From IMG/VR virus record IMGVR_UViG_3300045836_000148, positions 1-63,678 of that record: a DNA stretch of 63,678 nucleotides; one strand, written 5' to 3'. The position numbers were made by a program, and so were the translations under genes. Below, in pieces: positions 4,196 to 63,551 of the stretch (position 1 is the first letter of the stretch; every line of letters starts with the position of its first letter). The notes under the pieces are model-generated. The model was not told the DNA's origin. It did no database searches and saw only the letters and a list, made by a program, of their open reading frames with translations. Origin of the DNA: a virus.

Positions 4196-4204
4196 GAGCG
4201 CTCC

Positions 4205-4417: not shown

Positions 4418-4435
4418 TCCGTTTCCCCAAAGAAA

Positions 4436-4461
4436 AAGGGCCCGCATTGCTGCGAGCCCTT
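4436..4461 (-). terminator. intrinsic terminator in late leader 3
   Basis: On the minus strand a stem AAGGGC-CGC / GCG-GCCCTT with a six-base loop and one mismatch is followed by TTTTTCTTTGGGG. It lies between the promoter-like element at 4470 and the start codon at 4417, so a transcript from there must pass it before reaching the holin genes. The 13 bases after the stem are identical to those at the 24243 terminator. Confidence 0.75.
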
Positions 4462-4469
4462 GGTGTTCG

Positions 4470-4499
4470 GGACGTACTATCCCGGTCGGTATGTTAGCA
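4470..4499 (-). promoter_or_regulatory. late promoter-like element, copy 3
   Basis: The minus strand reads TGCTAACAT, an extended -10 box of the TGnTAnnnT type, followed by ACCGACCGGGATAGTACGTCC. Twenty of 30 bases are identical in all three copies (4470, 14884, 24342). The element sits 50 bases upstream of a terminator and then the holin genes. No good -35 box is visible. The conserved downstream half would lie at the start of the transcript and could be an antitermination recognition site. Confidence 0.6.
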
Positions 4500-4523
4500 C
4501 TCTTTACTTCTCAGTGCGGGGGA

Positions 4524-7672: not shown

Positions 7673-7684
7673 GTTCCCTCCCGA

Positions 7685-9730: not shown

Positions 9731-9732
9731 GA

Positions 9733-10428
9733 TCAGAGCGGAGGCCCGAACGTCACGGGCGGCATGTAGTCGCGCAGCAGCTGCTGCCACACGCGCTTCT
9801 TGCCGGCCGCCGCGCGCTGCGCCACCTCGGGCGCGGACTCGTACGCGGCGTACCGCTCCATCGTCTCGTAGACGAGGAGCATGTGGTACTTGACCGGCAG
9901 GTCGTTGCCCGCGCTCGACGGATCGTCGGAATCGGCGGACAGCGCGGTCGGCGCGCGGAAATACTCCGCGACGACCGTGTAGACGTCGTCGGGGATCGGG
10001 CCGAGCTGCAGGGAATGATCCTGGGGGTTCACGGCCATGGTCACAGGCCGCGTCTGCATCGTGCGGTTCGCACCGAAGAGCCAGACGCGCAAGAACGTGT
10101 CCCAGTCCTGCGGTGGCAGGATCATCTCGTCACCGTAGCCGATGGCCGCGTGATAGCAGCGGAAGCTGTTCAGCTTCCAGTTCACGGGCCCGGTGATGCC
10201 GATGTCGGTCGGGGCGTAGTTCGCCTTCCCAGGCGTCGTGTTGAACGTGGCCGTCTTGCGCATCCACTGCCAGTCCGGCTTCGCGATCTGCAGGTCGTTC
10301 CAGGCGTCCTGCATCCACGTGAGGAAACGCTGCCCCTCGAGCGTGAGGCCGGTTTGCACGGTCGCCAGCGGCTGGCCGGAGACGCCGCACTCTTGGCGCG
10401 CGCGGTTAATCAGGGCGAGCAGATTCAT
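9733..10428 (-). CDS. head-to-tail adaptor protein, 231 aa
   Basis: Helical N terminus MNLLALINRARQECGVSGQPLATVQTGL, then LTWMQDAWNDLQIAKPDWQWMRKTATF, the pattern of podovirus neck or adaptor proteins (T7 gp11/P22 gp4 slot). The C terminus has LPVKYHMLLVYETMERYAAYESAPEVAQRA, a conserved helix of the same group. It connects portal and tail hub. Its start overlaps the end of the GIY-YIG endonuclease gene by 23 bases, suggesting the endonuclease was inserted just upstream. Confidence 0.75.
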   Translation of the reverse strand: MNLLALINRARQECGVSGQPLATVQTGLTLEGQRFLTWMQDAWNDLQIAKPDWQWMRKTATFNTTPGKANYAPTDIGITGPVNWKLNSFRCYHAAIGYGDEMILPPQDWDTFLRVWLFGANRTMQTRPVTMAVNPQDHSLQLGPIPDDVYTVVAEYFRAPTALSADSDDPSSAGNDLPVKYHMLLVYETMERYAAYESAPEVAQRAAAGKKRVWQQLLRDYMPPVTFGPPL

Positions 10429-10900
10429 GCGTATCCTTCTTCGTGCCGCACGGCCACTTGCCCCGCTTCACTCGGTACGCGATGGCTTGTCGGGTGACGC
10501 CCAGCTCGTGCGCCCACTCGCGCAAGGGGCGCGTCGTACCATCCAGCCCTTCGATCCATCGGCAACGACGGGGCGAGTGCTTGAGGTTCGATGCGCTCAG
10601 TCGCGCGCGATGCTCAGGCGAAAAGCGCATCCCCGAGAGGCCCTCGCCACCGTCCGTCAGGTTGACCAAGGGGTCGCCCCGACGACGGAACCGTTCAATC
10701 AAGACGCGTTCGTGCTCGAACGCATCGTCTTCGTTCTCCCACACTGCCAGCAGAAGCACGATCCTTCCGTGCTTACGGGCGACGCGCTGCCAGTACGCCG
10801 AGCGTCCCGACCTCCGATAGGCGCGTTCCATCGAACCTTTTCCCGCATACATCACGCGGAGATCGTCCGCGCGGAGATGCAGGTAGGTATAGAACGACAT
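10406..10900 (-). CDS. GIY-YIG homing endonuclease, 164 aa
   Basis: Opens with YTYLHLRADDLRVMYAGKGSMERAYRRSGRS, the GIY-YIG fold signature (Y-x-Y, then Y-x-G-K-G, then Arg). A conserved Glu lies in EHERVLIERF, and NLTDGGEGLSGMRFSPEHRARLS is an NUMOD3 DNA-binding motif. A C-terminal HTH (LREWAHELGVTRQAIAYRVKRG) reads DNA sequence. Such free-standing enzymes nick or cut phage DNA lacking the insertion and spread by repair. It lies between two structural genes with overlapping ends and has no obvious structural role, so it is probably a selfish insertion. Confidence 0.85.
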   Translation of the reverse strand: MSFYTYLHLRADDLRVMYAGKGSMERAYRRSGRSAYWQRVARKHGRIVLLLAVWENEDDAFEHERVLIERFRRRGDPLVNLTDGGEGLSGMRFSPEHRARLSASNLKHSPRRCRWIEGLDGTTRPLREWAHELGVTRQAIAYRVKRGKWPCGTKKDTHESARPD

Positions 10901-11388
10901 CAGTCCTCGCCGAGGATGCGCTCCAGCCAGGCGCGACCGCGCGGGTTCGGATCGCCGACGATCTCGAACGGGTACACGATCGCGCTGTGGCCGATCATCT
11001 CGTTGCCCGACTCGGGATCCATCGGGTTGCGGGTCGGCTGCGTGTAGCGCGTCTCGCGCATGCGCGCCAGCACCTCGACGAAGCAGCGCTTGATCTCGAC
11101 GACGCGGCCGCGCGGGATCTGCACGCGGTTGGTCGGGCTGTTGACCGTGACGGTCACGAACGGCGGCGCATTCGGATCGGTGGTCGTATGCACGCGGATC
11201 TTGATGCGCTCGTTCATGAACGCCTCGTCCCGCGCGACATCGGCCAGATCGCTCTCGGTGATCGGCTCAATCACGGGCTCGTCGTCGGACACGACGATCT
11301 GCGGGACGTCATGGATGACGCCATGCGAGGCAAGCTCGTCGGCGAGCTTGCGCTGCGCCGCCGAGGCGGTGATGACGGTACGACTCAT
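10900..11388 (-). CDS. putative neck/virion structural protein, 162 aa
   Basis: The central part (NERIKIRVHTTTDPNAPPFVTVTVN) is beta-stranded and is followed by VVEIKRCFVEVLARMRETRYTQ, a pattern I associate with an uncharacterised structural protein downstream of N4-gp56-type capsid genes. It lies after the decoration proteins and before the adaptor, so a head or neck role is likely. Its stop overlaps the start of the endonuclease gene in an ATGA. Confidence 0.6.
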   Translation of the reverse strand: MSRTVITASAAQRKLADELASHGVIHDVPQIVVSDDEPVIEPITESDLADVARDEAFMNERIKIRVHTTTDPNAPPFVTVTVNSPTNRVQIPRGRVVEIKRCFVEVLARMRETRYTQPTRNPMDPESGNEMIGHSAIVYPFEIVGDPNPRGRAWLERILGED

Positions 11389-11411
11389 GAGGTGTCCTGG
11401 TGGGGAGAGGA

Positions 11412-11436
11412 GCCCCGGGGCTAGTCCCCCCGGGGC
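11412..11436 (-). terminator. strong stem-loop after the decoration genes
   Basis: A nine-base stem GCCCCGGGG / CCCCGGGGC with a seven-base loop lies between the end of the second decoration gene (11444) and the next start (11388). No U-run follows, so it is either a partial terminator or an RNA-stabilising hairpin that limits expression of the neck genes relative to the capsid genes. Confidence 0.5.
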
Positions 11437-11443
11437 GTATTGC

Positions 11444-11905
11444 TTAGAAGCCGGAGGCCGGCAGCAGGCAGAGGTTGAAGTAGTTCGTCGTCACGCCGGC
11501 CGCGTTGAACGCCGTGGTGCCCGGCACGAAGGCCGAGCCCGAGGCGTTGTAGACGCTGGCGACGCCGATCAGGGTGCGCGAGCCGGGGTTCGGCGGAGGC
11601 GCGACCTTGTCGGTGCCGGTGGTCACGACGCTGACCGGGCCCTGCGTCACGGTCAGGTTGCCGGAGCTGTCGAGCCACACGCCGAAGTTCGACTTCGAGC
11701 CGTTCGGGATGTTGGTCAGCACGAAGTTGCTCGGGGTCGCCAGAGCGAACGTCGCGACCGCGTTCTTCGCCGTCTGGTAGACGCCGTCGAGCGTGTAGTT
11801 CGCGGTGGCCGCCGTCGACAGCTGGTTGGTCGAGGAGCCGATGCCGAGGCCGACGTTCGAGAAGCAGAAGCTGCCGCCGATGGCCTCTTCGAGGTTGAGA
11901 GACAT
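11444..11905 (-). CDS. head decoration protein paralogue B, 153 aa
   Basis: Beta-rich protein following the capsid gene and its paralogue. It shares with the adjacent gene the block IPNGSK-x2-x-G-x3-D-x2-GNLT-x2-QG-x-V and a later YNASGSAFVPGTTAF segment, equivalent to ENGTGSTFTGGTTAL in the neighbour. The two are therefore a tandem duplication. Location directly after the capsid gene suggests outer-capsid decoration or cement proteins. No enzymatic motif is present. Confidence 0.7.
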   Translation of the reverse strand: MSLNLEEAIGGSFCFSNVGLGIGSSTNQLSTAATANYTLDGVYQTAKNAVATFALATPSNFVLTNIPNGSKSNFGVWLDSSGNLTVTQGPVSVVTTGTDKVAPPPNPGSRTLIGVASVYNASGSAFVPGTTAFNAAGVTTNYFNLCLLPASGF

Positions 11906-11925
11906 GGTTGTGTCCTTTCGCTTGT

Positions 11926-12426
11926 TCAGAGCACCGAGAGCGGCTGAATGCCGTCCGGCTGGTTCACGTAGGTCACCGTCAGCGACGCCGTGTCGAGGGC
12001 GGTCGTGCCGCCCGTGAAGGTCGAGCCCGTGCCGTTCTCGATCACCAGGTAGCCCACCGCCACCGTCCAGTCCGGCAGCGCGGGGAACGTCAGCTGGCCG
12101 ACGCTGGCCGCGACGCCGCCCTGCAGCATCGTCAGGTTCCCGTTCACGTCGGTGACGAAGCCGATGACCTGCTTGGAGCCGTTCGGGATCGACACGCCGG
12201 TCAGCGCCGGCATCGCCGTGCCCGAGGCGATCTTCACGAGGACACCGTTCACGAGCACGAAGCTCGCGGTCGTGGTCTTCGCGAAGGTCGCGCCCGCGCC
12301 GTTGATCGCCAACGTCACCGGGGCGACGACCTGGCTGCCGAAGATCGAGACGAAGATCCCGCGCACGAACGCGTTGCGCGCGAACGCATCGCTGATGTCC
12401 TGGGCGTACTTCTTGAGGATGTTCAT
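11926..12426 (-). CDS. head decoration protein paralogue A, 166 aa
   Basis: First gene after the major capsid gene, with AAAGGA seven bases before ATG 12426. A short basic helix (MNILKKYAQDISDAFARNAF) leads into a beta-rich domain with VSIPNGSKQVIGFVTDVNGN, homologous to the next gene. Probably a capsid decoration or head fibre-like protein. The helical N-terminal extension is absent from the paralogue, hinting at different attachment. Confidence 0.7.
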   Translation of the reverse strand: MNILKKYAQDISDAFARNAFVRGIFVSIFGSQVVAPVTLAINGAGATFAKTTTASFVLVNGVLVKIASGTAMPALTGVSIPNGSKQVIGFVTDVNGNLTMLQGGVAASVGQLTFPALPDWTVAVGYLVIENGTGSTFTGGTTALDTASLTVTYVNQPDGIQPLSVL

Positions 12427-12441
12427 GGCTGTCCTTTCAGG

Positions 12442-12461
12442 ACGGGGGCCGAGGCCCCCGT
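12442..12461 (-). terminator. stem-loop directly downstream of the capsid gene
   Basis: Nine-base perfect stem ACGGGGGCC / GGCCCCCGT with a two-base spacer lies five bases after the capsid stop. It lacks a U-tract. Hairpins in this place often act as partial terminators or protect capsid mRNA from 3' decay, raising capsid output over downstream genes. Confidence 0.55.
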
Positions 12462-12466
12462 GTTCC

Positions 12467-13540
12467 TTACAGCGCCGAGACGCCGCACTCGAGACGAGCC
12501 ATCCACGCCTCGTTCAGCCGCACGCAGTTGAACCAGGTCGTGGCACCCACGTAGCCGAACTGGCCGAGCGGGTTCGCGTGGGTGATCGTGCCGCTCTTGA
12601 GCACGGTCGGCTTGATGGCGTTCATGCCCTTGAGCGCGACCTGGCCCCAGCAGTCGTCACCGATGACGATGAAGGGGTACACGTCGACGTTCGAGCCGCC
12701 CACGCTCAGGCAGCCGTTCATCGTGGAGTTGCCGGCCGCGAGGAACGGCACCAGCAGCGGGGACTTGATGAAGCGGAAGTCCTCGCAGCTGCCGATCTCG
12801 TTGTCGTGGATCGGCTTGTACGAACCGTAATCCTCGACGCGGGTGAAGCCCGGCAGGTTGCGGATGTCGGCCACCGCGTCCGTGTGCACGAACACGATGA
12901 ACGCCGGCTGCACCGCGCGGGTCGCGAAGTTCACGCCCGGGGCGACGCGCTGCGTCACGCGCTTGGCGCGGTTCGACTCGAGGGTACGAGCGGACTTGCG
13001 CAGCGCGTTCAGGGTGACGGTCGTGTTCACCGTGGCGCGGCTCGAGCCGTTGGCGTAGACGACGGTCGAGCCCGCCTTCAGCACGCCGTAGCGGATCATC
13101 TCGAGCACTTCGGCCATCGTCTCGCCGGTGAGCTTGACCATCTCGCCCGGGATGTCGTCTTCGTACAGCAGCTCGACCTTCGAGGTGAACTTGAAGAGGA
13201 TGCCGTACTGCTGCAGCGTGACGCTGACGTCCTGGAACGTGATCGTGTTCGCCGCCGGGGTCTGGCCTTCGGACAGCATGAACGCGGTCGGCGCGAGGCC
13301 GGTGTTCGAGCCGCCGGGGGTGCCGACGTAGCGGTTCGAGCCTTCGATCGAGATGCCCGCGGTCGAGGCGAGCAGGGGCAGCGTGCGACGGAACACGATC
13401 GTGTCCGTCTGGTTCTGCGGGATCTCGCGCTGCATGCCGAAGTCACCGAGGACGGTGATCGGCTGGGCGTGGGCGAGCATGTCTTGCGCGGCGCGGATGG
13501 CATTCCGCGATGCCGCGGTGGAGTAACCTTGGATCGACAT
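12467..13540 (-). CDS. major capsid protein, N4-gp56 type, 357 aa
   Basis: Features of the N4-gp56 capsid family are visible: N-terminal GDFGMQREIPQNQTDTIVFRRTLPL, then QDVSVTLQQYGILFKFTSKVELLYED, and later RAVQPAFIVFVHTDAVADIRNLPGF with VYPFIVIGDDCWGQVALKG near the end. It would form the HK97-fold shell. It follows the scaffold gene directly, the usual order, and is followed by a stem-loop and two decoration genes. Length fits the family. Confidence 0.9.
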   Translation of the reverse strand: MSIQGYSTAASRNAIRAAQDMLAHAQPITVLGDFGMQREIPQNQTDTIVFRRTLPLLASTAGISIEGSNRYVGTPGGSNTGLAPTAFMLSEGQTPAANTITFQDVSVTLQQYGILFKFTSKVELLYEDDIPGEMVKLTGETMAEVLEMIRYGVLKAGSTVVYANGSSRATVNTTVTLNALRKSARTLESNRAKRVTQRVAPGVNFATRAVQPAFIVFVHTDAVADIRNLPGFTRVEDYGSYKPIHDNEIGSCEDFRFIKSPLLVPFLAAGNSTMNGCLSVGGSNVDVYPFIVIGDDCWGQVALKGMNAIKPTVLKSGTITHANPLGQFGYVGATTWFNCVRLNEAWMARLECGVSAL

Positions 13541-13555
13541 CGTGATGTCCCTTTC

Positions 13556-14497
13556 TCAGTACGCGAGCCCAGCGTTCCGGCGCTGGGCGCGCTTGCGTTC
13601 GTATTCCCAAGCCTCCTTGGGGCTCATCTGGTCGGGCGTCTTCTGCGTCGCCACCGGTGCGGCGCCCGGGCGGGCGCTGACGGCGGCGGCGAGCTTCGTG
13701 CTGCGTTGCTGCTGCTGTTGCGCGGCGGTCTGCGCCGTCGCGGCCTGGTAGGTGTCCAGAAGGCGGATCGCGTCCGCGGCCCGCTCGCTGCCGCTCAAGG
13801 CGCGCAGCTCGGGGGACTGCTGCTGGTACCAGGCAGCGAACTCCGGCGTGTTGATGACCGCCTTCCAGTCCCCGTGCTTGCCTTCGACCTTCGCCTCTTC
13901 GATCGCACGCGCGGTCGCGGCACGCTCACCGGCCAGGCGCTCGTTGACCATCGCCTCGACTTGCGCCGGGGACAGGCCATCGGTTTGCTTGGACGTGAGG
14001 CCCGCGAGCGACGCCTGCACGAACTGCTCGGTCGCATCGGCCCACTCGGGGAAATCGGCGCGGAGGGCTTCCCACTTCTTCGTGTCGCCCTGCGCCGCCT
14101 GGATCTGCGCGTTGGTCGGCCCCGCGTTGCCGACGGCCTTCGCCGCCTGCTTCGCGCTGTCGATCTCGCGCTGCATCGCTGCCACCCGCCCTTCGGCGGT
14201 CTTCACGTGCTGGATCAGTTGCGGGAGCTGCGCGACCTGCTGCTCGAGGTGCTCGAGCTTCTCGAGTCGCTGCCGAACCTCCGGGGAGAGTCCAGCAAAC
14301 GGGTCGGTCTGCTCTTGCGCCTGCGCGCTGTTGGTCGTCTTGCTTTCCTGGGTCTGCTCGGTCGACGGTTGCTCGATCTGCTCTTCGGGGGTCGCGACGG
14401 TCTTGCTCGAGGGCGACTCTTCGCCGGCCTCGCGCTCCTGCGCAATCTCGTTCCAGAGCTTCTGGGCGTCGTCGGCTTGTGCGGTGTCACCAGCCAC
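13556..14497 (-). CDS. capsid scaffolding protein, 313 aa
   Basis: Strongly acidic, Gln/Glu/Ala-rich helical protein with coiled-coil segments (LEKLEHLEQQVAQLPQLIQHV, AMQREIDSAKQAAKAV) and a basic C terminus (WEYERKRAQRRNAGLAY) that could contact the capsid floor. Low cysteine and aromatic content, position immediately before the capsid gene and length all fit a scaffold. It begins 26 bases after the upstream gene ends. Confidence 0.85.
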   Translation of the reverse strand: MAGDTAQADDAQKLWNEIAQEREAGEESPSSKTVATPEEQIEQPSTEQTQESKTTNSAQAQEQTDPFAGLSPEVRQRLEKLEHLEQQVAQLPQLIQHVKTAEGRVAAMQREIDSAKQAAKAVGNAGPTNAQIQAAQGDTKKWEALRADFPEWADATEQFVQASLAGLTSKQTDGLSPAQVEAMVNERLAGERAATARAIEEAKVEGKHGDWKAVINTPEFAAWYQQQSPELRALSGSERAADAIRLLDTYQAATAQTAAQQQQQRSTKLAAAVSARPGAAPVATQKTPDQMSPKEAWEYERKRAQRRNAGLAY

Positions 14498-14523
14498 TGA
14501 CTTCTCCTACTACGTGGTTGCCC

Positions 14524-14751
14524 TCAGTACGAGGGCCAATCCGAATGGGCATGCGCCGACTCGGAGGCTTTCGCGCGCGCTGCCGCTTCGGGCAGGGCGA
14601 GCATTCGTTTGGCGAACCTGATGGCCCCGCGCACGCGCGCGGTTTCTGCCGGCTCCAGGTCACGCTCGAGTTCTGCGCGGAGCTTCTGCAGCTCCGACTC
14701 GGCCCAGCTCGCTACCGCGAGCCAGTCGCCGGATAGAAAGTTGATGGGCAT
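14524..14751 (-). CDS. small helical protein of unknown function, 75 aa
   Basis: Mostly alpha-helical (VASWAESELQKLRAELERDL, ARVRGAIRFAKRMLALPEAAA) with no membrane segment or catalytic motif. Its start codon lies directly at the T-run of the leader terminator, so translation needs read-through from the element at 14884 or transcription from upstream. It precedes the scaffold gene. Function unknown; a head-assembly accessory is possible. Confidence 0.6.
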   Translation of the reverse strand: MPINFLSGDWLAVASWAESELQKLRAELERDLEPAETARVRGAIRFAKRMLALPEAAARAKASESAHAHSDWPSY

Positions 14752-14757
14752 GAAAAA

Positions 14758-14805
14758 GCCGCCTCGAGGGCGGCCAGAAATGACGAAGCCCGCACGGGGC
14801 GGGCT
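14758..14805 (-). terminator. double hairpin terminator in late leader 2
   Basis: Minus-strand order: stem AGCCCGC / GCGGGCT (14787..14805), then GCCGCC-tcgag-GGCGGC followed by TTTTT (14758..14774). The T-run ends one base before the ATG of the next gene. Together with the element at 14884 this gives promoter, leader, terminator, gene, as at the two other late leaders. Confidence 0.75.
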
Positions 14806-14883
14806 ACGGGGTGGGGTATGTGGTGGCGAGGGCCCGAGCTAACGGGTGCATCGAGAACGTCTTCCTGATCCTCGCCTGAGTCG

Positions 14884-14913
14884 GGACGCACTGTCCCGGC
14901 CCGAATAGTACCA
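14884..14913 (-). promoter_or_regulatory. late promoter-like element, copy 2
   Basis: Minus strand TGGTACTAT (extended -10 type) followed by TCGGGCCGGGACAGTGCGTCC. It shares 20 of 30 positions with both other copies and lies immediately after the stop of the 100-residue gene at 14916. About 80 bases downstream are two terminator hairpins, then the head operon (scaffold, capsid). No clear -35 box. Confidence 0.6.
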
Positions 14914-14915
14914 CA

Positions 14916-15218
14916 CTATTGATCAATGTGCGACGGTTGTTCCACACTATCACGCAGCAGACGCCGCTTCTTGACCGGCCCCATGGGCGTCAGCGCGCGG
15001 ATCTTGCGCACCATACCGCGGGGGATGCGCTCGCGCGCGGCGACCAGGCCGGTGCCATCGGGCTCGACGGCGTGCGTCAGCACGATCGCGTCGCGCGTGT
15101 CCTCGAGGAGCCAGCCGACCTGCAGGAAGACCTTCGGCGTCATCGGCGGCGAATTGCGATCGACCCACGGGCCGGCCTCAGCCACGGCGTCTTCCCATTC
15201 CACGCAAACGAGTCTCAT
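14916..15218 (-). CDS. unknown small basic protein after the endolysin, 100 aa
   Basis: ATG 15218 overlaps the endolysin stop as ATGA, and this start fits the coupled reading. The N-terminal half is beta-like (RLVCVEWEDAVAEAGPWVD, FLQVGWLLEDTRDAIVLTHAV). The C terminus is basic (VRKIRALTPMGPVKKRRLLR). Short proteins of the type -GWLLEDTRDAIVLT- with a Lys/Arg-rich tail are common in phages but lack an assigned role. No membrane segment, so it is not an obvious spanin. Confidence 0.65.
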   Translation of the reverse strand: MRLVCVEWEDAVAEAGPWVDRNSPPMTPKVFLQVGWLLEDTRDAIVLTHAVEPDGTGLVAARERIPRGMVRKIRALTPMGPVKKRRLLRDSVEQPSHIDQ

Positions 15219-15715
15219 GCGGCCTCCGAGGCGATGAAGCGCAGATCGTTCGCGAGTCGGGCGTCCCAGCCCTTCGCGAACGTCTGGAAGTTGGAGAGCT
15301 TCGTCCGGTACTCCACGCACTCGGCGACGAAACGAAGCAGCAGGACAATCTGCGGCGTCGCCTTGACGGCGGCCGTGGTGACGGGGCCCCAGTGCCCGTC
15401 ATCCGCAACGCCCGCGGCGGCCTGCAGCTTACGGATCGCGGTCTGGAGGCCCGAATTCACGGCGAACGTCAGGGCCATAAACGCGAGCATCGGCGGCAGG
15501 TCGTCGTAGTGCAGCGGATCGGCGAAGTCACGCCGGTAGATGGCGGTGATCTCTTCGTCCGAAAGCGCCTTGATGTCGAGGTCAGGGTACGAGCGCTTCG
15601 TGATCCCCTTGTTCGTCTCGCCGCCCGGGTCGTCCGTCAGGCCGGGGGTGTAGCCCCCCTCGTCCTTCAGCAGCTGCGCGATGTCCCGGTCGAACATGGT
15701 TCCCATCTGTGACAC
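15215..15715 (-). CDS. endolysin, glycoside hydrolase 108 family, 166 aa
   Basis: N terminus FDRDIAQLLKDEGGYTPGLTDDPGG then TNKGITKRSYPD matches GH108 muramidases. The Glu of DEGGY (residue 19) is the expected catalytic acid. The C-terminal half resembles the family's peptidoglycan-binding domain (LQAAAGVADDGHWGPVTTAAVKA). It hydrolyses the glycan backbone of peptidoglycan at lysis. The GTG start at 15715 is favoured by AAGGT seven bases upstream; ATG 15706 is an alternative. No signal peptide is visible, so export depends on a holin. Confidence 0.9.
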   Translation of the reverse strand: MSQMGTMFDRDIAQLLKDEGGYTPGLTDDPGGETNKGITKRSYPDLDIKALSDEEITAIYRRDFADPLHYDDLPPMLAFMALTFAVNSGLQTAIRKLQAAAGVADDGHWGPVTTAAVKATPQIVLLLRFVAECVEYRTKLSNFQTFAKGWDARLANDLRFIASEAA

Positions 15716-15757
15716 GTTGTGTTACCTTACAGTTGAGTACCGAAAACGGAGGTGAGG

Positions 15758-15910
15758 ATGTCGGAGACGCTCGAACTGGTGCTGGAACTGATCGGCCTCG
15801 TGGCGCTGGGCGCCACGCTTCTGCTCACCCGCAAGAAGGAGACGTCCGAGGTCACCGAGGAGGCGAAGGAGCACCACGCCTTCCTCGACTGGCTCAATCG
15901 CGTCTGGTGA
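15758..15910 (+). CDS. single-TM small protein on the opposite strand, 50 aa
   Basis: The only convincing plus-strand gene inside the late block. It fills the gap between the endolysin start and the tailspike stop. GGAGGTGAGG lies just before ATG 15758, a near-perfect ribosome site. The protein has a membrane helix (LELVLELIGLVALGATLLL), a basic stop-transfer RKK and an acidic soluble tail ending in HAFLDWLNRVW. No convincing promoter or terminator was found. It could be a moron-like membrane protein or an antisense-encoded lysis regulator; function unknown. Confidence 0.65.
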   Translation: MSETLELVLELIGLVALGATLLLTRKKETSEVTEEAKEHHAFLDWLNRVW

Positions 15911-15914
15911 GGCG

Positions 15915-18278
15915 TCAAGCCTCGTAGCAGCCGGCGGCCCCCGTGCCGTCGTTCTTGCGAGCGACGCCATCGAGCGCGTACTTCAGTACCGCCCTGCCCG
16001 CGGGGACGCGGTTGCGCAGGTAGACCGAATTGGCGTTGCTCGTGTTGATGTGGTAGTCGCCGCCGAGGGCCGGCGACGCCTGCGGCAGCACCGTGTAGTT
16101 CGTGAAGATCGCCATCACCTGGGCCTGCGTCAGTGCCAGGCCGCCGGAGCCCGTGTAGGTCAGGTTCGGCATCGACGACGGGAGCCACGCCGACCCCAGG
16201 TAGGGGTTGTCGAAATTGTCGTTGTGCGGCCACTCGGTCGGGCCGCGGTTCACGGCGCCGAAGAGGCTGACGTAGCCGATGTTCCCCGTGCTGTAGTGGT
16301 ACTCCCAATTACCCGTCGAGCCGGCGCCGGTGTTGAAGGTGTCGGTCTTGTTGTTGTAGTCGTCGACGATGCTGAACATCGACACGCCACGCTTGATGAC
16401 GCCGTTCGGCGTGAACTTGTCCGCGGTGTTGTCGTTGTACATGCGCGAGCAACGGTTGCCCACGGCGGTATTGTGCATCTCGATATAGTTCTGCACGGTC
16501 GTCGCGTCGCCGTCCGCGAAGACGTTCATCGCGATCGCGCCCTGCGTGTTGTCGCTCTCGAACAGGTTCTGGATGTTCGCGAACCCGTAGTTGAGCGTGT
16601 TCGCCGTGTTCGCCGTCGGGTAGTTCTGGATCAGGTACGCGGCGCGGTTGTTGTAGACAATGCGCCCGTGTTCGCCGTCACTGATCGTGTTCGCCGCTTG
16701 GATGCCGAACTTCGGGAGCACGCAGCCAATCATGAGGTGCGGCTGATCGTTGGTGCTCGACGGAATCGACGTGTTCGTGGCCGAGACCCAACCGGCGCCC
16801 AGGGCGATGCCGCAGGTCGCGGTAACCAGGTTCTGCATCGTGCAGGTTCGGCTGCCTGCGAACGTGATGTTCGTCAGATACTTGATGTCGTACCAGCTCA
16901 CCCCCGATGCAGCGGCGGCCGTCAGGTCGAACGTGCAATTGTCGACGGAGAGCATGCTGCGGCTGTTGTTCTGGCCGATCAGCATGTAGCCGGTCGCCGC
17001 AGCAGACAGGAACGTCAGACCGCCAGTCCACCGCATCTTGTCCGGGAATTGCGCCTGCGCCGACCACGTCACGGAGACGGCGCCGGTCGCAGCCGGATCC
17101 TTCTGGATCTCGCAATACGCCGTGCCCGGACTGTTCGTGGGCGCGCTCGCGATCGTGTGCGTCGACGCGCTACCGCTCGCGTCCATAAGGCGAATGATCG
17201 CGCCGCCCAGGTCGTTGTGGGCCTTGTTCGTGTTGTTCCACGTCTTCACGGCGGCCATGGCCGCAACGATCGTCGGGAACGGCGCCGCGGCCGCCGTCGC
17301 AGCAGTCGCCGACACGGTACCCCCCGACGCGCCGACCTGAACGTAGGCGTAGGCGCCGCCGTAGGTGCCGGACGTGTCATTGAAGATGCGCAGCTGCGTC
17401 ACCGGCAGCGACGTCGGCCACGCGACACCATCGGTCGCCAGATTCAGCACAGCCGTCGAGTCGCCGATCCATGGGTAGACCTGCGCGTTCGCGTTGACCG
17501 TCGTCGCCTGCGTCAGCGTCGACAGGTTCAGCGTGCCGGCCCAGACCTCGGGGATGTTGCCCTGGATCAGCTTGGTCGACAGCGTCGTCGAGCTGATGGT
17601 CACGGTCGACGTCGTGTTCGTGCCGTCCGTGGCCGAAACCTTCACGCAGGCGACCTGCTGGCCGGCGCGCGCATGCCGGTGGAACGTGACGAGTTCGAAC
17701 GGGAACGAAGTCGTGCGCGCGATCTCGCCCTGGTGGTTGATCCAGCCGAAGAGCGGCTTCGTATACGCGCGCGTCGACAGGTTGCTGACGACCGCCGACG
17801 CGCCGCTCGTGACCGCACCGGTGTAGAACGAGCTGTTCAAGGTCACCGAAGTGATCGAGGTCGAGGCGTAGATCGTGTCGTCGAGGGACACATAGAACAC
17901 CGTGTCGCCCGCGCCGTCCGTCGTGAAATACTTCGAGCCGCCGTTGGGGTACTGCCGCCGGAGCTGCGCAACGCCGTTGATCGTGCGCGTGACCGTCGTC
18001 GCGTTGCCAGAGGTGTCAAAGCCGGGGTCGGAGACCGTCAGCTGGAGCGCCGTGGGCGTGCACGCACCGGTCGTGTTGACGCCCTTGAGCACCACGCGCG
18101 CGACCCAGCCAGAGCCGGTCGCACCGACAGCGCTGCCGATGCTCGGGCCGGCGGTCGTCACCACCGGATCGATCTGCGTGTCGTCGGCGATCGTCAGCGT
18201 CTTGAGCGCGCCAGGCAACACGGGGTTGCTCGCGCCGTACATGGCCGCGATCGCGAGGAGGAGCCGGTAGGACGACAT
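15915..18278 (-). CDS. tailspike-like protein with beta-helix features, 787 aa
   Basis: Starts MSSYRLLLAIAAMYGASNPVLPGALKT, followed by beta-rich repeats of Ser/Thr/Gly. A middle region (GGAIIRLMDASG, then YMLIGQNNSRSMLSVDNCTFDL, ITFAGSRTCTMQNL) has the short regular strands with Asn and Cys positions of right-handed beta-helix spikes. It is coupled with the two small beta-rich genes upstream. A second receptor-binding or depolymerase spike besides the tail fibre is likely. Catalytic residues cannot be assigned by eye. Confidence 0.65.
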   Translation of the reverse strand: MSSYRLLLAIAAMYGASNPVLPGALKTLTIADDTQIDPVVTTAGPSIGSAVGATGSGWVARVVLKGVNTTGACTPTALQLTVSDPGFDTSGNATTVTRTINGVAQLRRQYPNGGSKYFTTDGAGDTVFYVSLDDTIYASTSITSVTLNSSFYTGAVTSGASAVVSNLSTRAYTKPLFGWINHQGEIARTTSFPFELVTFHRHARAGQQVACVKVSATDGTNTTSTVTISSTTLSTKLIQGNIPEVWAGTLNLSTLTQATTVNANAQVYPWIGDSTAVLNLATDGVAWPTSLPVTQLRIFNDTSGTYGGAYAYVQVGASGGTVSATAATAAAAPFPTIVAAMAAVKTWNNTNKAHNDLGGAIIRLMDASGSASTHTIASAPTNSPGTAYCEIQKDPAATGAVSVTWSAQAQFPDKMRWTGGLTFLSAAATGYMLIGQNNSRSMLSVDNCTFDLTAAAASGVSWYDIKYLTNITFAGSRTCTMQNLVTATCGIALGAGWVSATNTSIPSSTNDQPHLMIGCVLPKFGIQAANTISDGEHGRIVYNNRAAYLIQNYPTANTANTLNYGFANIQNLFESDNTQGAIAMNVFADGDATTVQNYIEMHNTAVGNRCSRMYNDNTADKFTPNGVIKRGVSMFSIVDDYNNKTDTFNTGAGSTGNWEYHYSTGNIGYVSLFGAVNRGPTEWPHNDNFDNPYLGSAWLPSSMPNLTYTGSGGLALTQAQVMAIFTNYTVLPQASPALGGDYHINTSNANSVYLRNRVPAGRAVLKYALDGVARKNDGTGAAGCYEA

Positions 18279-56268: not shown

Positions 56269-59200
56269 CTACTGGCCGGCTGCCTGCACCCGCTCCAGCG
56301 CGTCCGCGTCCCGCCGTCCGAGCGTCGTCAACGCGTGCGCGTTGACGCGGGACTCGGGGGACTCCTGACCCTTCAGGTACGAGCGGATCTCGTTGGCGTC
56401 CATGACCGTGCGCAGCATGTCGATCGCCTGGTCGCGATCCTCGTCCCGGCCGCTCGCGAGCAGCTGGTGAGTCTGCGACAGCACGTACGACCGCTGCTGC
56501 TGGAACCGCTCGTTCTCCGCGCGCAGCTGGCCGGCCTCCGGGCCGCCCGGCGCGCCCTTGCTCGCGGTGATGCCGGCGAGCATGGACAGCTCGAGCGCGT
56601 GGCGCTCCTGGGCGGTGCGCTCCTGCTCCTTGGGCGACGCCGCGGCGTCCGGCTTGGCCGTCGCCAGGTCGTAGGCCACCTGGAAGTCGTGGACGGGGAA
56701 CTGCCCGGCGGCGTAGTGCGCGACCGCCTTGCCGGCGGCGCTCAGGAACGAGTCGCTCGGCGCCCAGATCGGGCCGGACTCCGGCGCGTGGCCGGCGGCC
56801 TGCATGCCGATGTCGATCGCCGGCTTAACCAGCGTCCCGGACTTCTGCCAGGCCATCGCGCCCGGGTCGGACATCCAGCCCTCGAGATCCTCGCCGACCT
56901 TGCCGAACGGCAGCCGATAGTAGGTCGCCGTGCCGTCGCTCATGTCCGGGCCGCGGAACCGGTTTTCCTTGCCGGGGTCGTTCGTGCCGCCCGGGGTGAA
57001 CGAGTGAATCCACTTGAACGGGTGGCCGACAAACGGCAGGACGTCCTGGAGGTGGCTGTCGGCGTACTGCAGGGCCGCGGTCGCGCGCGGGCCGTACTTC
57101 GCCAGCTCGGCCTTCAGGTTGTCCTTGAAGTCGCCGTCCTGCGTGTACGCGCGCACGCCGGTCTGGAACGCGGCGTTCAGCATGTACATCATGCCGATGT
57201 CGCGCACCAGGGCGCCGACCGCCTTGCGGCGCATCGCCATGTTGGCCGAGCGCGCCGCCTGGTCGCCGTAGGCCAGGCGCAGCTGGGACTGCACCTCGGC
57301 CGGCAGGCCGCGGATCATGTCCTTGTACATCGCGAAATTCGACAGCGTGAACGACCGCGAGAAGAGCGCGATGTTGGCGAACTTCCGGGCGAAGCCCGAC
57401 ATCGCCTCGTTCGGGAGCGTACCGGCGACGCGGTTCGCCAAGTTGGCGGCGACCTTGCCCGCCATGCCGTCGGCGGTCGTCTTGTCGAAGCCCTGCTTCT
57501 GGAACGCCTCGGAGTAGTGGCGTTCGGCCTGGGCGTAGACGCCCAGCTGCAGGTCAGCCACGCGCTTCCACAGCAGGTGGTTGTGCACCAGGTCGCCGAC
57601 GCCGTCCGCCAGCTCGGCGCCGCGGTCGCCCGCGACCTTGCCGACCAGCTTGGCCTTCCAGCCCTGGCCCGGCCGCAGCGCCGTGTCGTTGGCGATGGAC
57701 GTGATGTCCTGCTTGTGGCCGTAGTTGTTGATCGGCACCATGCCGTTCTCGATCGCGCGGCGCACCACCGGCGAGGCGCCCGACGACTCGAGGCGCGCGC
57801 GCTCGTTGTAGGGCACGCCCTGCATCGCCTGCACGCCGCGCTGCACCAGGTTGCCGGCCGCCTTCGCGTAGCCCAGGACGCCGCCCCGCTCGCCAGTGCG
57901 CAGCGCGCGGCCCTCGAAGTACGCCGGCAGCGTGCCCAGCGGCATCGACGCGAGCGCCTTGCCGAACACGACCTGGTTGTGGATCAGCGGCGAGTACATG
58001 ATGTTCGCCGTCGCCTCCTGCTTCAGCGCCATCAGCGCGCCGTACGCCTTGCCCGGCGGGTCGTAGATGATCGACTTCAGCGGGCCCTCGAACTCCTTGG
58101 CGATGTACAGCGGGCGCTGCTGGAACACGGGCCGGTGGAACTGGTCGGTCGCGGGAACCTTGGCGCCGGTGCGCGGGTCGTTGACCATCTGCGGGGCGTA
58201 CGTCTTGAACGCCGGGTGGTCGAGCGTGAAGTAGCCCGCGGCGTTGGCGGCCTCGGGCTCGTCCTTGACCAGGCCGGTGCCGGAGGCGTCCGACGCCTGG
58301 CGGATGCGCTCGACCAGCTCGCGACCGGCGATCGCCTGCTCGAGCCGGCCCATCGCGAGCGGCATCGTGCGGATGTCGCGCAGCGTGTGCGCGGTCGCGG
58401 TGTCCGAGTTCAGCAGGCGCTGCTGCGCCGCTTCCGTCTCCTCGACCGTCAGGTACTTGCGGCCCTTGGCGGCCGACGCCGAGGTGGTCAGGTCGTGCGC
58501 GAGGTTGACGTCGGCCTTCGGCGGCGCGGAGTAGCTCCCGTCCTCGCCGATCATGACGGCCATGCGCGGCGTCCAGTACGGCAGGCCGCCGTCCGGGAAC
58601 ATGCCGACCGCCTGACCGCGCGCGAGCAGCTCCTCGCCGTACTGGTGCAGACGCTCGACCGCGGCGCGCTCCGGCGGCGACAGCGCGTCCAGGCCGTTCG
58701 CGCCGGTGCGCTCGAGGTGCCCGCCGCGGATCAGGTTCTCCTCGTCGGCGGCGTTCCACATCGCCTCGCGCCGTTCCTTGGAGAAGTTGCGCAGGAGCAC
58801 GTGGTCGAGCTGCTGGTACTGGTACTGCGCCACGCGCATCTGGTTGGCGGTGTCCTTGGCCCAGGCGCGCGCGCGGTCGCTGCCGGTCGACGCGGACATC
58901 GGCATCGTGCGATCGCGCAGCTCGTTGATCGCGTCGGTGATGCGCAGCGTGTTGCCGAAGTTGCGCAGCGACTGGAACGCCTTCGCGCCAACCCGCGCCA
59001 GGGCCGACACGGCGCGCGGCGCCGGGTGCTGTTCGCCGGCCCGCGCCTGGGGCGACAGCGGGCGCTGGGTGGCGCGCGGGTCGGGCTGAGGCGCCGGGCC
59101 CTCGGCCTCGCTCAGACTACGGCCTTGACCCAGGTCAGGTCGGCCCGCCACGCCAGCGCCGCCGCCGGGTCGCGAGCGATCGCTCGCCGCAGCGCTTCCG

Positions 59201-62200
59201 CCGTTGCGGGCGTCGGCCGCTCCTGCGAGTCCAGCGTCGCGGCCACCTCGCGCAGCAGCCGGCGCATCGGCGCCATCGGCGCGGGTGCGTCCGTCCTCAG
59301 CTTGTACGCGTGCCCCGGCCACCCCAGGACGCTCGGCATCGCCAGGATGAGCGCCGCCCACTCCGGCCGGTGCTTGCGCGTCGGCGGGGGCAAGTAGACG
59401 TCGGGGGTCGGTTCCATTGGCAGGATTCTCCCCCAGCGCCAGCATTCCGTCCACCGCCCGCCCGCGCCCCTTGGCTTCGGCCAGGCCCTCGGGCAGCTCG
59501 TTCGCCATCAGCCGGTGAGACACGTCGATCAGGTCGGCGAGCGCCGACGTGTGGCCCTTGTCCAGGTTGAACAGGCCGCGCACGCGCGCGACGAAGTCGC
59601 CCCAGGCGGTGCGGTTGATCACGCCCGGGGTCTGCTTCAGGTAGTCCTGCACCCGCGGGTCGACGAACCCCCAGGTGATCAGTTCCTCCGGCCGCTCGAA
59701 CGCCGGCCCGGCCACGGCGTCGACCGGGCTGCGCTTGCCCGCGGCGCGCTCGGCCTCGTAGGTCGACCGGACGTGGTTGAACAGTTGCACCAGGTCGCGC
59801 GCCGCGCGCCCGACCGGCGTGTTCTCCGGGGCCATCAGGCCGCGCTGGAACTTCTTGACCGTCGCCACGTGGAGCGCCTCGTGGAGCACCGTGCCATTGT
59901 TCGAGCCCTGGCTGCCCTGAGCGTAGTCCGCGCTCTTGACCCAGACCTCGTGCTTCGAGAAGTCGGGGCTCCAACGCATCAGGCCGCGCGCGCCGGCCAT
60001 CTGCGGCGGCGCCTGGCGGATCGTCTTCGGCGTGACGACCTTGAACGGGACGCCCTGCGTGAACGGAGCGACCACCTGCGCGATCGCCTTCTCGAGCGGG
60101 CTGCCGCCGTTGGCCGCGCGCCGCACCGCCTGGTCGAGGGACGTGTCCTGCTCGTACCCGCGGTTCGGCGTGCGATCGACGAAGGTCGGGCCGTTCGCCA
60201 TGCTGGTCGGGCCGTCGTCCGCGCCCGGGGGCGCCACCGGCTCGCCCTTGGCGTTCCAGCTGTCGGCGATCGCGGCCTGCCGGTCATCGCCCTCGCCGCG
60301 GGGCTTGTTGAACGGCACGCTGTCGCGGCCGGCGCGCGTGAGCACGTTGCCAGCGCTGGTCACGTTCTGGTCGACGGACGGCGCGGTGCGTTGCTGCTCC
60401 ACCATCGCGCGCTGCACGTCCTCGCGCGTGATGCGTCCGGCGTCGTACTCCTGGACGAAGGCGCGTGCGGCGGGCGTGTTCGTGTTGCGCTGGGCGTTGA
60501 CGTACAGGTCGACCGGGTCGGTGCTCGGGGGCGCCTCGGCCTTGTTGCCCTGCAGTTCGGGCGAGTACGGGTGCGGGGCAGGCGCCTCGTTGGCCTGGAC
60601 GGCGTAGGCGCCATCCTCTGCCGGGTGCTCGACGACCGACGTACCGTGGGGGAACAGCGGCTGGCCGTCCTTGGCCGTCATCGCGTTGAGCACCTGCGAG
60701 CGCTGCGACGCCTGGCTCTTGGTCTGCGGCGTCAGGTCGGCGTAGCGCGGCGCAGGCTGCGCCTCGGCCGGCGCGCGCTCGGCGTCGGGGTACGCGGGCG
60801 ATTGGTTCTTCAGTGGGCCCTGCGGCTCGATCAGCTGACGCTGCGGGCCCGTGAGGTCGGGTCGTGCCAACGGCTGCGACGGCACCTCGGTGGCCCCGGG
60901 CGTCATGCCCGCGTCCTCGCGGATGCGGTTCATGAACAGCTGCTTGAGCACCGGGTCGTTCGTCGTCGCGGCGATCTCGGCCGCGGAGCGCGTATCGACC
61001 GGAGTCGCGTCCGTGCGGTTGCCGAAGGCGTCGGGCAGGTCTGCCGCCATCGTGGCCGTGCGAGCCTGCCGCTGGTCGGACGTCGTGGCCTGGTTCGCGT
61101 GGTCGACGAGCTGCGCGTGCAGGTCGACGGCCTCCTGCAGCTTCTGCAGACGCGCCTGCTCTGCCTGGTCGTAGGCCGCGTCACGGCCCTGGTCGATGTT
61201 CTGCATCGCGCGCTGGAAGGCGGCGCTGCGGGCGTTCTGCTGGGCGAACTTCTCCTGGTCGGACAGCAGCTGCGCCTGCGCGGTCGGCGGCGCGAACTGC
61301 GCCTGCGACGCGTCGAGCGCAGCCTGGTCGCCGCGAGGCGCCGTGACCGCCGGATCATTCAGGTCGGCTTGCAGCTGGTTCAGGCGGTCGACGGCCTGCT
61401 GGTGCGCGACCGCGTTGAACGGCGACGCCTCGCTCGACGTCTGCTGCGCGTCCATCGCCTGGAACTGCGACTGTAGCTCGTTCATGCGCTGCACTGCGGC
61501 ATCGTGCTGCGTGGCCGCCACGCGCGCCGGGATGTCGTCCTGCGGGCGCGATGCCAGGTCGAACGCCGCGCCGATCGCACCGTCGACGTCCTTGGCCGAG
61601 TCGAGAGCGGCGATCGCGTCGGTCTTCTGCTGCTCCGCGCGCGCGGCGCCCTCGGCGACCGCCTTCTGCAGGTTCGAACCGACGGTGGGCGTGCGGCCCA
61701 TCGCCTGGTCGAGCTGCGTTTCGATCGGGACGCCCTCGATCGACGGAGTGGGCGCCGCGGGCGCCGGAGCCCGCGCGCCGCCGTTGGCAAGCGCCGGGAT
61801 CGCGGCGTGCGCCGCGTGGATGCCGACGTGCGCGCCGGCCTGGAAGGCCGCGCCCTCGAGCGTGCTGCCCCACGTCGGCGCCTCCTGCGCCGCCTGGTCA
61901 GGCAGCCCCGCGGCTTGCAGACCGAGCGACGTCGCCTCCTGGCTGGCAGCCGTCGTCGCGCCGCCGACGAGCGCCGAAGCGCCCGCGGCCTTCGCCGCGG
62001 AGCCCAGCAGGTTCGCTGCGCCGCCGCTCAGGTTGAGCCCGGGGATCGGGATCTTCGACGCGGCAGCTTGGATAGCCGCCTGCGGCGCGGCGATCGCCGT
62101 CGCCTCGCTGTACGGCATCGTCGGGTTCGCGTCCTGAATCTGCTGCGACTTCGCCGACTGCTCGCCAGCGAGGACACCGCCCGGGCCGGCCAGACCTTCG

Positions 62201-62580
62201 ACCGCGCCGCCGGTCAGCTTGCCCGACCAGCGCTGCGGCGTGTTCTGCGGCGCGTTGGCCTCGCGCAGGGTCTGCGTCCCCTGGTCGTAGGTCTTCTGCG
62301 CCTCCTCGTCGCTCATGAACGGATCGAGCTGGGCGAGCATGTGCGTCGCCGCGCCGTATAGCTTCTGGCCGCCCTGCTTGATACCCGTCCAGGCATCCTG
62401 CACGAGGCTCGGTTCGTCCTTGGCGGACTCGGCCGCGGCAGCCGGCGCCGCGTTGGGCTTGATCGCGCCGCTCGCGAGGCCGTGTTGCAGGATGCCGAAC
62501 GCCTGCTCGGGCGTCGCGCCTTCCGGCCCGGTGATCGTGTACGACTGGCCCTGCGGGGAAGTGAAGGTGAAGTCGGGCAT
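56269..62580 (-). CDS. giant internal virion/ejection protein with HExxH motif, 2103 aa
   Basis: N terminus TFTSPQGQSYTITGPEGATPEQAF, then a long Gln/Ala-rich helical part. HEALH (residues 900-904) in GTVLHEALHVATVKKF followed by RPEELITWGFVDPRVQDYL is a metallopeptidase-like motif. Residues about 1055-1156 are low complexity and overlap a nested gene. The C-terminal half (IALFSRSFTLSNFAMYKDMIRGL and a helix-rich tail) resembles very large phage ejection and polyvalent proteins. It ends the late block. Probably enters the host with the DNA. Confidence 0.85.
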   Translation of the reverse strand: MPDFTFTSPQGQSYTITGPEGATPEQAFGILQHGLASGAIKPNAAPAAAAESAKDEPSLVQDAWTGIKQGGQKLYGAATHMLAQLDPFMSDEEAQKTYDQGTQTLREANAPQNTPQRWSGKLTGGAVEGLAGPGGVLAGEQSAKSQQIQDANPTMPYSEATAIAAPQAAIQAAASKIPIPGLNLSGGAANLLGSAAKAAGASALVGGATTAASQEATSLGLQAAGLPDQAAQEAPTWGSTLEGAAFQAGAHVGIHAAHAAIPALANGGARAPAPAAPTPSIEGVPIETQLDQAMGRTPTVGSNLQKAVAEGAARAEQQKTDAIAALDSAKDVDGAIGAAFDLASRPQDDIPARVAATQHDAAVQRMNELQSQFQAMDAQQTSSEASPFNAVAHQQAVDRLNQLQADLNDPAVTAPRGDQAALDASQAQFAPPTAQAQLLSDQEKFAQQNARSAAFQRAMQNIDQGRDAAYDQAEQARLQKLQEAVDLHAQLVDHANQATTSDQRQARTATMAADLPDAFGNRTDATPVDTRSAAEIAATTNDPVLKQLFMNRIREDAGMTPGATEVPSQPLARPDLTGPQRQLIEPQGPLKNQSPAYPDAERAPAEAQPAPRYADLTPQTKSQASQRSQVLNAMTAKDGQPLFPHGTSVVEHPAEDGAYAVQANEAPAPHPYSPELQGNKAEAPPSTDPVDLYVNAQRNTNTPAARAFVQEYDAGRITREDVQRAMVEQQRTAPSVDQNVTSAGNVLTRAGRDSVPFNKPRGEGDDRQAAIADSWNAKGEPVAPPGADDGPTSMANGPTFVDRTPNRGYEQDTSLDQAVRRAANGGSPLEKAIAQVVAPFTQGVPFKVVTPKTIRQAPPQMAGARGLMRWSPDFSKHEVWVKSADYAQGSQGSNNGTVLHEALHVATVKKFQRGLMAPENTPVGRAARDLVQLFNHVRSTYEAERAAGKRSPVDAVAGPAFERPEELITWGFVDPRVQDYLKQTPGVINRTAWGDFVARVRGLFNLDKGHTSALADLIDVSHRLMANELPEGLAEAKGRGRAVDGMLALGENPANGTDPRRLLAPADAQAPAGVGGAHPGDAERPGVAGARVQAEDGRTRADGADAPAAARGGRDAGLAGAADARNGGSAAASDRSRPGGGAGVAGRPDLGQGRSLSEAEGPAPQPDPRATQRPLSPQARAGEQHPAPRAVSALARVGAKAFQSLRNFGNTLRITDAINELRDRTMPMSASTGSDRARAWAKDTANQMRVAQYQYQQLDHVLLRNFSKERREAMWNAADEENLIRGGHLERTGANGLDALSPPERAAVERLHQYGEELLARGQAVGMFPDGGLPYWTPRMAVMIGEDGSYSAPPKADVNLAHDLTTSASAAKGRKYLTVEETEAAQQRLLNSDTATAHTLRDIRTMPLAMGRLEQAIAGRELVERIRQASDASGTGLVKDEPEAANAAGYFTLDHPAFKTYAPQMVNDPRTGAKVPATDQFHRPVFQQRPLYIAKEFEGPLKSIIYDPPGKAYGALMALKQEATANIMYSPLIHNQVVFGKALASMPLGTLPAYFEGRALRTGERGGVLGYAKAAGNLVQRGVQAMQGVPYNERARLESSGASPVVRRAIENGMVPINNYGHKQDITSIANDTALRPGQGWKAKLVGKVAGDRGAELADGVGDLVHNHLLWKRVADLQLGVYAQAERHYSEAFQKQGFDKTTADGMAGKVAANLANRVAGTLPNEAMSGFARKFANIALFSRSFTLSNFAMYKDMIRGLPAEVQSQLRLAYGDQAARSANMAMRRKAVGALVRDIGMMYMLNAAFQTGVRAYTQDGDFKDNLKAELAKYGPRATAALQYADSHLQDVLPFVGHPFKWIHSFTPGGTNDPGKENRFRGPDMSDGTATYYRLPFGKVGEDLEGWMSDPGAMAWQKSGTLVKPAIDIGMQAAGHAPESGPIWAPSDSFLSAAGKAVAHYAAGQFPVHDFQVAYDLATAKPDAAASPKEQERTAQERHALELSMLAGITASKGAPGGPEAGQLRAENERFQQQRSYVLSQTHQLLASGRDEDRDQAIDMLRTVMDANEIRSYLKGQESPESRVNAHALTTLGRRDADALERVQAAGQ
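59112..59417 (-). CDS. nested gene inside the giant virion protein gene, 101 aa
   Basis: Fully embedded in another frame on the same strand. GGGGGAG lies ten bases before ATG 59417. The product has normal amino acid composition: YLPPPTRKHRPEWAALILAM, GHAYKLRTDAPAPMAPMRRL, AEALRRAIARDPAAALAW. The main frame over the same bases is Ala/Gly/Arg/Asp-rich low complexity, as expected when a linker is overprinted. Function unknown. Alternatively the region was once two genes that fused. Confidence 0.65.
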   Translation of the reverse strand: MEPTPDVYLPPPTRKHRPEWAALILAMPSVLGWPGHAYKLRTDAPAPMAPMRRLLREVAATLDSQERPTPATAEALRRAIARDPAAALAWRADLTWVKAVV

Positions 62581-63551
62581 CAGTTGACCTTAAGGCTCCA
62601 GCCAGCGGGGAGGCCCGAGGCCGCGGGTGCAGCAGCCGGGGCCGGCGTGGGGCCGGGGGCAGGAGCCGGAGCGCCCGCGCCGCCGATTCCCGGCGGGGGC
62701 TTCACGCCCAGCATGGAACCGACGGTCGAGGCGTAGTAGTCGTGCGTCTGCTTGAGGTTCTGCATCTCGACCTGGACTTGAGCAATCCGCTGCTGGATCG
62801 CCGGCTTCTCGGTCGACTTGGCCGTGGTCATCTGGTTGCTGAGGTCGTTCAGCTCCTTGCGGCGCTCCTCGATGTTGCGCGAGGCGTCGTCGTACATGTT
62901 CTTCGCCACCAGCAGCGCGGTCTTGTCGCCGCCGGCCGCCGAGTGCGCGAGCTGGGCCACCATGAGGCGCGTGTCCTGGTTGCCGGCCGCGATCTGCGCC
63001 ATCGTCTCGGCGCGCATCTGCGCGGACTCGAGGCGCTCGTGATCGCGGTTCGCCCACGCCTGCAGCATCGCCTGCGTCTGCGTGTCCGTGTGCAACATCT
63101 GAGCAACGGTGCCCATGGGGACGTCGCCGGTCTGCTCGCCGGCCTGCAGCTGGATGCGCGGGTCGGTCGCCATCTGCTGGCGCGCCGTGTTGAGCGCCTG
63201 CGACTGCGCGTCCTGCTGCCACGAGGACAGCTGGTTGTCCGTCATGCCCTGCGGGGCCTGCGGCATGTAGCGCTGCAGCTGCTGCGGGTTCTGCTGCAGC
63301 TGCTGGATGTTCTGGTCGATGATGCCCTGCTTGGCCGTCTGGACGCGGTTGACCATGTCCTGGCGCGCCTGGTTCGCCATGTTGTACTGGAGCTGCGCCG
63401 CAGCCTGGGCCTTCTGCTCCTCGAGCTGCGCCTGGTTCTGCTGCAGCGTCATCTGGTTGGCGGTGTTGATCTGGCCCTGCGCGTAGCCCTGCGCAGCTCC
63501 CGCGCCGCCCGCCAGGCCGGCCGAGACGATGCCACCAACGATGCCGACCAT
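62580..63551 (-). CDS. Gln-rich helical internal virion protein, 323 aa
   Basis: Begins VGIVGGIVSAGLAGGAGAAQGYAQG, a Gly/Ala hydrophobic start common in ejection proteins, then a long Gln/Asn/Ala-rich coiled-coil region and a Pro/Ala-rich end. TAATG overlap with the previous stop and direct abutment with the giant gene suggest they are expressed and assembled together in the internal core. Confidence 0.75.
   Translation of the reverse strand: MVGIVGGIVSAGLAGGAGAAQGYAQGQINTANQMTLQQNQAQLEEQKAQAAAQLQYNMANQARQDMVNRVQTAKQGIIDQNIQQLQQNPQQLQRYMPQAPQGMTDNQLSSWQQDAQSQALNTARQQMATDPRIQLQAGEQTGDVPMGTVAQMLHTDTQTQAMLQAWANRDHERLESAQMRAETMAQIAAGNQDTRLMVAQLAHSAAGGDKTALLVAKNMYDDASRNIEERRKELNDLSNQMTTAKSTEKPAIQQRIAQVQVEMQNLKQTHDYYASTVGSMLGVKPPPGIGGAGAPAPAPGPTPAPAAAPAASGLPAGWSLKVN

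Follow-up and report, generated by a model that had tools for sequence, protein, structure and literature searches.

Overlapping genes described in phages

The ShiLan insertion, which occurs in DNA methylases of phages, carries an out-of-frame HNH gene (PMC11855218), and an embedded Rz1 spanin gene is noted for JC1 (PMC9144972). Here we analyse a 101-codon open reading frame (ORF) nested in the gene for a giant ejection-type protein of 2,103 amino acids (aa). Both are located in the viral record IMGVR_UViG_3300045836_000148, the whole of which (63,678 bases, positions 1–63,678) is referred to as the window. The proteins recognised in the window, namely terminase, head-tail adaptor/portal, major head protein, DNA polymerase and tyrosine integrase, point to a tailed phage. 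Judged from the sequence, the nested ORF is probably a genuine overlapping gene with its own start, which the giant frame would cross as a disordered Ala/Gly/Arg linker; we assign this interpretation a rough probability of 0.8.

The ShiLan case resembles the window in that a small gene occupies another frame of a phage gene and the host frame is left free of stops. However, the ShiLan product is a 195-aa HNH endonuclease, scattered in its occurrence and inserted within a conserved motif, whereas the window product has 101 aa, bears no nuclease signature and falls in an interdomain linker. The Rz1 spanin genes likewise lie wholly within another phage gene in a different frame. Different from them, the host in the window is not an Rz protein, and the nested product has no lipoprotein signal, since it contains no Cys.

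As to the kind of host gene, the polyvalent proteins (PMC5512222) and the ejection proteins related to T7 gp16 and phiKMV gp37 (PMC8954989) are comparable, being giant, modular and virion-linked; the phiKMV protein of 1,337 aa is classed as gp16-like in the latter review (PMC8954989). The words 'overlapping' and 'frameshift' do not occur in the main text of the polyvalent-protein survey (PMC5512222), and overlapping small genes are unmentioned for polyvalent or gp16-like proteins in the open-access texts searched, an earlier description elsewhere being possible. The iddB gene of P1, located within ddrB, was considered as a precedent and rejected, as it is annotated on the opposite strand.

A nested ORF with its own coding signal

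The nested ORF runs from ATG to TGA on the minus strand (59112..59417), in the +1 frame of the giant gene (56269..62580, minus strand), which was delineated from the ORF list and by homology. Its predicted product has a mass of 11.2 kDa, an isoelectric point of about 10 and no Cys. A Shine-Dalgarno-like GGGGGAG (59428..59434, minus strand) can be read directly from the sequence 10 nt before the nested ATG. Both the ORF, with these exact ends, and the ribosome site had been picked out in an earlier note made from the letters of the window, and the ORF list agrees. The nested frame is stop-free for a further 30 codons upstream of its ATG.

The length of the ORF was discarded as evidence, because synonymous shuffles of the giant gene contain a longest +1 ATG ORF of 149 codons on average. 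Another +1 ATG ORF inside the giant gene has 142 codons, and its coding score is strongly negative. The composition of the nested ORF is a different matter. Its G+C fractions at codon positions 1, 2 and 3 are 0.74, 0.59 and 0.93, the signature of an ordinary gene in the genome of the window. In sliding windows, third-position G+C of the giant frame is about 0.95 (mostly 0.84–1.0) and drops to 0.56–0.76 only near residues 1026–1150, where G+C at host position 1, which is position 3 of the nested frame, climbs to 0.86–0.98. When codon preference is scored with the remainder of the giant gene as training set, it favours the host frame as far as the nested ATG, the nested frame between ATG and TGA, and then the host frame again.

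The nested ORF has a log-likelihood of +59.5. In 5,000 local shuffles, in which synonymous codons were exchanged and the amino acids of the giant were kept, the score is −73.9 ± 9.5 (standard deviation), with a maximum of −35. When 144 ordinary long ORFs (82,270 codons in all) were scanned as a control, no internal nested case appeared. The nine hits obtained all fall within the opening 40 codons of stop-to-stop frames, which we interpret as overlap with the real upstream gene. The nested coding signal exceeds what the giant protein imposes.

The giant protein and its linker

Across the nested ORF, codon phase and composition delimit a linker in the giant at residues ~1055–1156 (59112..59418, minus strand), whose 102 residues include 26 Ala, 22 Gly, 13 Arg, 10 Asp and 8 Pro. 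This count confirms the turn to Ala/Gly/Arg low complexity that had been noticed in the host frame. Upstream of the linker, residues 887–1025 (59506..59922, minus strand) resemble phiKMV-type internal virion proteins, with tblastn matches to 101 phage records and a blastp E value of 1e-10 to phikF77 gp41; an HEALH motif is encoded within this region (59869–59883, minus strand). The homology to phiKMV-type internal virion and ejectosome proteins supports the label of ejection protein that the giant had been given. An IMG/VR search for relatives by its zincin-like region found none; the IMG/VR scans used short peptide seeds and chiefly retrieve fairly close relatives.

Downstream of the linker is a conserved C-terminal core, which alignment with relatives L002–L055 (L numbers denote the collected loci) places from residue 1222 onwards (56269..58917, minus strand), with weaker similarity from ~1150. 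Over 40 viral contigs and two bacterial genome bins contain the core, at 28–38% identity. Three of the core relatives have N-terminal polyvalent-protein domains such as ddrB-ParB, InPase, ART-PolyVal, M15 peptidase and phosphoribosyltransferase. The nested gene is positioned at the junction between the variable N-terminal part of the giant and its conserved core. By hhalign the core shows no similarity to the C-terminal parts of phikF77 gp41 and of a Limnohabitans protein, and no homology was detected to the C-terminal part of DarB (from the Atu_ph08 giant) or to an epsilon15-like pilot protein.

Analogous nested genes in other giants

The earlier note called a dual-coding hinge in a phage ejection protein unusual. 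The arrangement is not unique to the window, and recurs in several families of giant phage proteins. Sequence comparison establishes both the recurrence of analogous +1 nested genes and purifying selection on them.

Among giants that share the core of the window protein, a frame scan detects internal +1 ORFs that are significant in L010 and L012 (two each) and in L030 and L032, and no significant internal +2 ORF. The two in L012 (7425–7640 and 9774–9884) come directly after the InPase and phosphoribosyltransferase domains of a 2,433-aa giant. L030 and L031 have a common nested protein, which we call the RAHRFLLA family (MAQRAHRFLLARTFEK... and MADNLQSRAHRFLLAKTFEH...), with an identity of 66% in the nested frame versus 30% in the host frame. 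L031 falls below the single-sequence threshold of the scan and is supported by its homology to L030. This family shares with the window the giant core and the +1 nesting, but it has only 51 aa, a different sequence and another interdomain position, after ddrB-ParB.

Following the InPase domain leads to the DarB-like giants. A nested +1 gene of 102–132 codons, starting with ATG, is found in nine GenBank phages: Agrobacterium phage Atu_ph08, Ochrobactrum POI1126, Vibrio VvAW1, Microcystis Mwe-JY07, Erwinia Pavtok, PEp14 and Stean, and Klebsiella LASTA and SopranoGao. Most of the products start with MNLNNW or similar, and in all nine records the giant coding sequence alone is annotated. Nested identity is higher than host identity in 36/36 pairs of these phages. 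With nested protein and codon usage taken as fixed, an open host frame has a probability of 0.0002–0.08 in each phage. Such improbable openness, together with the higher nested identity, indicates that both readings appear to be maintained in the DarB-like giants.

The IMG/VR search yields 70 MNLNNW loci, and in 66 of them the gene is nested in +1, counted as such when the host frame is open for at least 200 codons on both sides. Of the other four, two are truncated at a contig end, L117 resembles a decayed fragment, and the last is Sinorhizobium phage PBC5, which has a frame change. The IMG/VR and GenBank sets are not independent, because some phages occur in both. Sixteen pairs were drawn up so that no locus entered more than one of them; here 117, 95 and 261 substitutions fall at positions 1, 2 and 3 of the nested codons, and nested identity exceeds host identity in 15 pairs. 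A Shine-Dalgarno-like 4-mer precedes a start in 64 of the 66 nested loci. The gene, of ~105 codons, lies inside DarB-like giants at L061 (13424–13732), L064 (13448–13765), L066–L070, L072, L073 (near 9001–9330) and L074–L143.

Like the window gene, the MNLNNW genes are in +1 phase, of similar length, behind a Shine-Dalgarno-like site and at the junction of a variable N-terminal part and a core. In contrast, no relationship is detectable between the nested proteins (hhalign probability 0.3%) or between the cores. The proposal of the earlier note that the nested frame dominates while the giant tolerates a linker agrees with the codon-phase statistics of the window as well as with these conserved analogues.

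A different or very remote nested gene occupies the corresponding junction in the giants of Lessievirus (BcepIL02, JC1, DC1 and BcepMigl), behind AAGGAG(G/A); its similarity to the MNLNNW family is remote (P 0.0016, probability 16%). In each of these DarB-like giants there are two +1 nested ORFs behind strong Shine-Dalgarno sites, the larger one at the junction before the DarB core (L144, 11296–11619 and 9502–9666; L146, 5654–5992 and 3980–4168; L147; L148). The giant of the Burkholderia phage JC1 has been detected in virions. The giants of Pseudomonas USP_25 and 8P also have a nested gene.

Two records deserve separate mention. In PBC5 (L060, 13740–13786) the giant frame changes ~45 nt before the nested ATG, and the upstream gene is annotated as continuing into the nested frame. 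The change could be due to an indel, to a sequencing error or to a programmed shift. In Pseudomonas Itty13 (L071, NC_070969.1) the nested gene lies inside a DarB-like frame of 4,112 codons (3987–16325), and the annotation instead places three large hypothetical genes on the strand opposite this frame.

The bias towards +1 phase

Given the nested protein, the probability that the observed host frame is free of stops is 0.55 in the window, compared with 0.04 for the other same-strand frame; the values for BcepIL02 are 0.27 and 0. The observed frame is more often stop-free because a host stop there requires T at the third position of the nested codon, and the nested gene is G+C-rich. Stop avoidance would thus make a frame that crosses a G+C-rich gene nearly always +1, and such a frame reads as rich in Ala, Gly, Arg, Glu and Pro.

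Weighing the explanations

Several observations weigh against a genuine, crossed gene in the window. With its nested protein held fixed, chance alone would leave the host frame open in 0.55–0.66 of cases, so that openness in the window is by itself weak evidence for a selected crossing. Homologues of the 101-residue protein were not found in phages, plasmids, IMG/VR, GTDB genomes, PDB or three family libraries, and the best match among all six-frame ORFs of the collected loci has an E value of 0.08. The distant core relatives (28–38% identity) are likewise without this nested protein. The constraint on the nested frame that the earlier note had looked for among relatives is thus present in the analogous nested genes, while for the window gene itself no homologue was found in which to see it.

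It is for this reason that a fossil survives best among the alternatives. A small gene may once have stood between two ancestral genes and, after their fusion into the giant, may no longer be translated and not yet have decayed; the coding signature of one sequence on its own would look alike for a gene in use and for one lost recently, and no relative was found. However, the nested ATG, the stop and the Shine-Dalgarno-like site are all intact, and the analogous genes elsewhere are under purifying selection while nested. We consider a fossil unlikely.

The codon-phase switch at both ends would also be predicted if the stretch had once been the giant's own linker and two compensating indels, one near each end, had shifted the giant out of frame and back, and the PBC5 record does have a frame change near such a junction. 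What this frame excursion fails to predict is an ATG with a Shine-Dalgarno-like site and a stop exactly at the switch points, and the same anatomy with a conserved ATG in dozens of phages makes it very unlikely.

A programmed frameshift, by which some ribosomes would leave the giant frame upstream and end at the nested stop to produce a short giant with an altered tail, deserves very little credence. The 30 open codons upstream of the nested ATG would permit a shift there, and the annotation of the PBC5 upstream gene into the nested frame is of the expected kind. Yet codon preference upstream of the ATG does not favour the nested frame, a start codon with a Shine-Dalgarno-like site would be needless, and in many analogues the nested frame is closed 2–10 codons upstream.

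We find it similarly hard to credit a homing-type insertion, that is, a mobile element in the giant comparable to ShiLan with its out-of-frame HNH endonuclease, even though the anatomy of an out-of-frame gene with the host frame left open is shared (PMC11855218). The nested protein has no HNH or other nuclease match, no repeats flanking the stretch were found beyond a 10-mer, the stretch is located in a linker rather than a conserved motif, and the analogous genes are fixed at one place, not scattered.

A chance open frame in a G+C-rich, low-complexity linker is strongly disfavoured, for +1 ORFs of such length are indeed common in the giant gene, but amino-acid-preserving shuffles never come near the observed coding score and the control gave no internal false positive.

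Proposed mechanism and implications

If the window holds a genuine overlapping gene, initiation at 59417 behind GGGGGAG would yield a small basic protein of 101 residues, with termination at 59112. Over these 306 bases, ribosomes translating the giant would read the adjacent frame and make a flexible Ala/Gly/Arg/Asp/Pro linker, which would join the N-terminal part, ending in the phiKMV gp37-like region, to the conserved C-terminal core. The protein information would then be carried by the nested frame, and the giant would require merely an open frame. Both products would presumably arise from a single mRNA late in infection. The linker is probably younger than the small gene, which would have been crossed when an N-terminal module was joined to the core in a single reading frame.

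As to function, we can only speculate, and somewhat doubtfully, that the 101-residue protein is a dedicated partner of the giant, for example a chaperone for assembly, or an inhibitor that prevents effector or ejection parts from doing harm before they are packaged. At about even odds, giant injected phage proteins generally bear an overlooked class of +1 small genes in their interdomain linkers, conserved in position and not always in sequence, whose products serve as dedicated partners in assembly, inhibition or ejection; the window gene would be a member. Gene callers tend to drop ORFs within longer ORFs, so such small genes go unseen even in cultured phages whose DarB-like giants have long been known. 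On this view a puzzling feature of giant phage proteins, an abrupt Ala/Gly/Arg linker, can be the shadow of another gene and need not have been designed as a hinge. In G+C-rich genes, stop-codon avoidance favours the +1 phase, which offers a simple rule for finding further cases.

Upstream of the giant, the ORF list contains a Gln-rich gene of 323 aa (62580..63551, minus strand). The last base of this gene is the first base of the giant ATG (62580), and owing to this one-base overlap the two may be translationally coupled.

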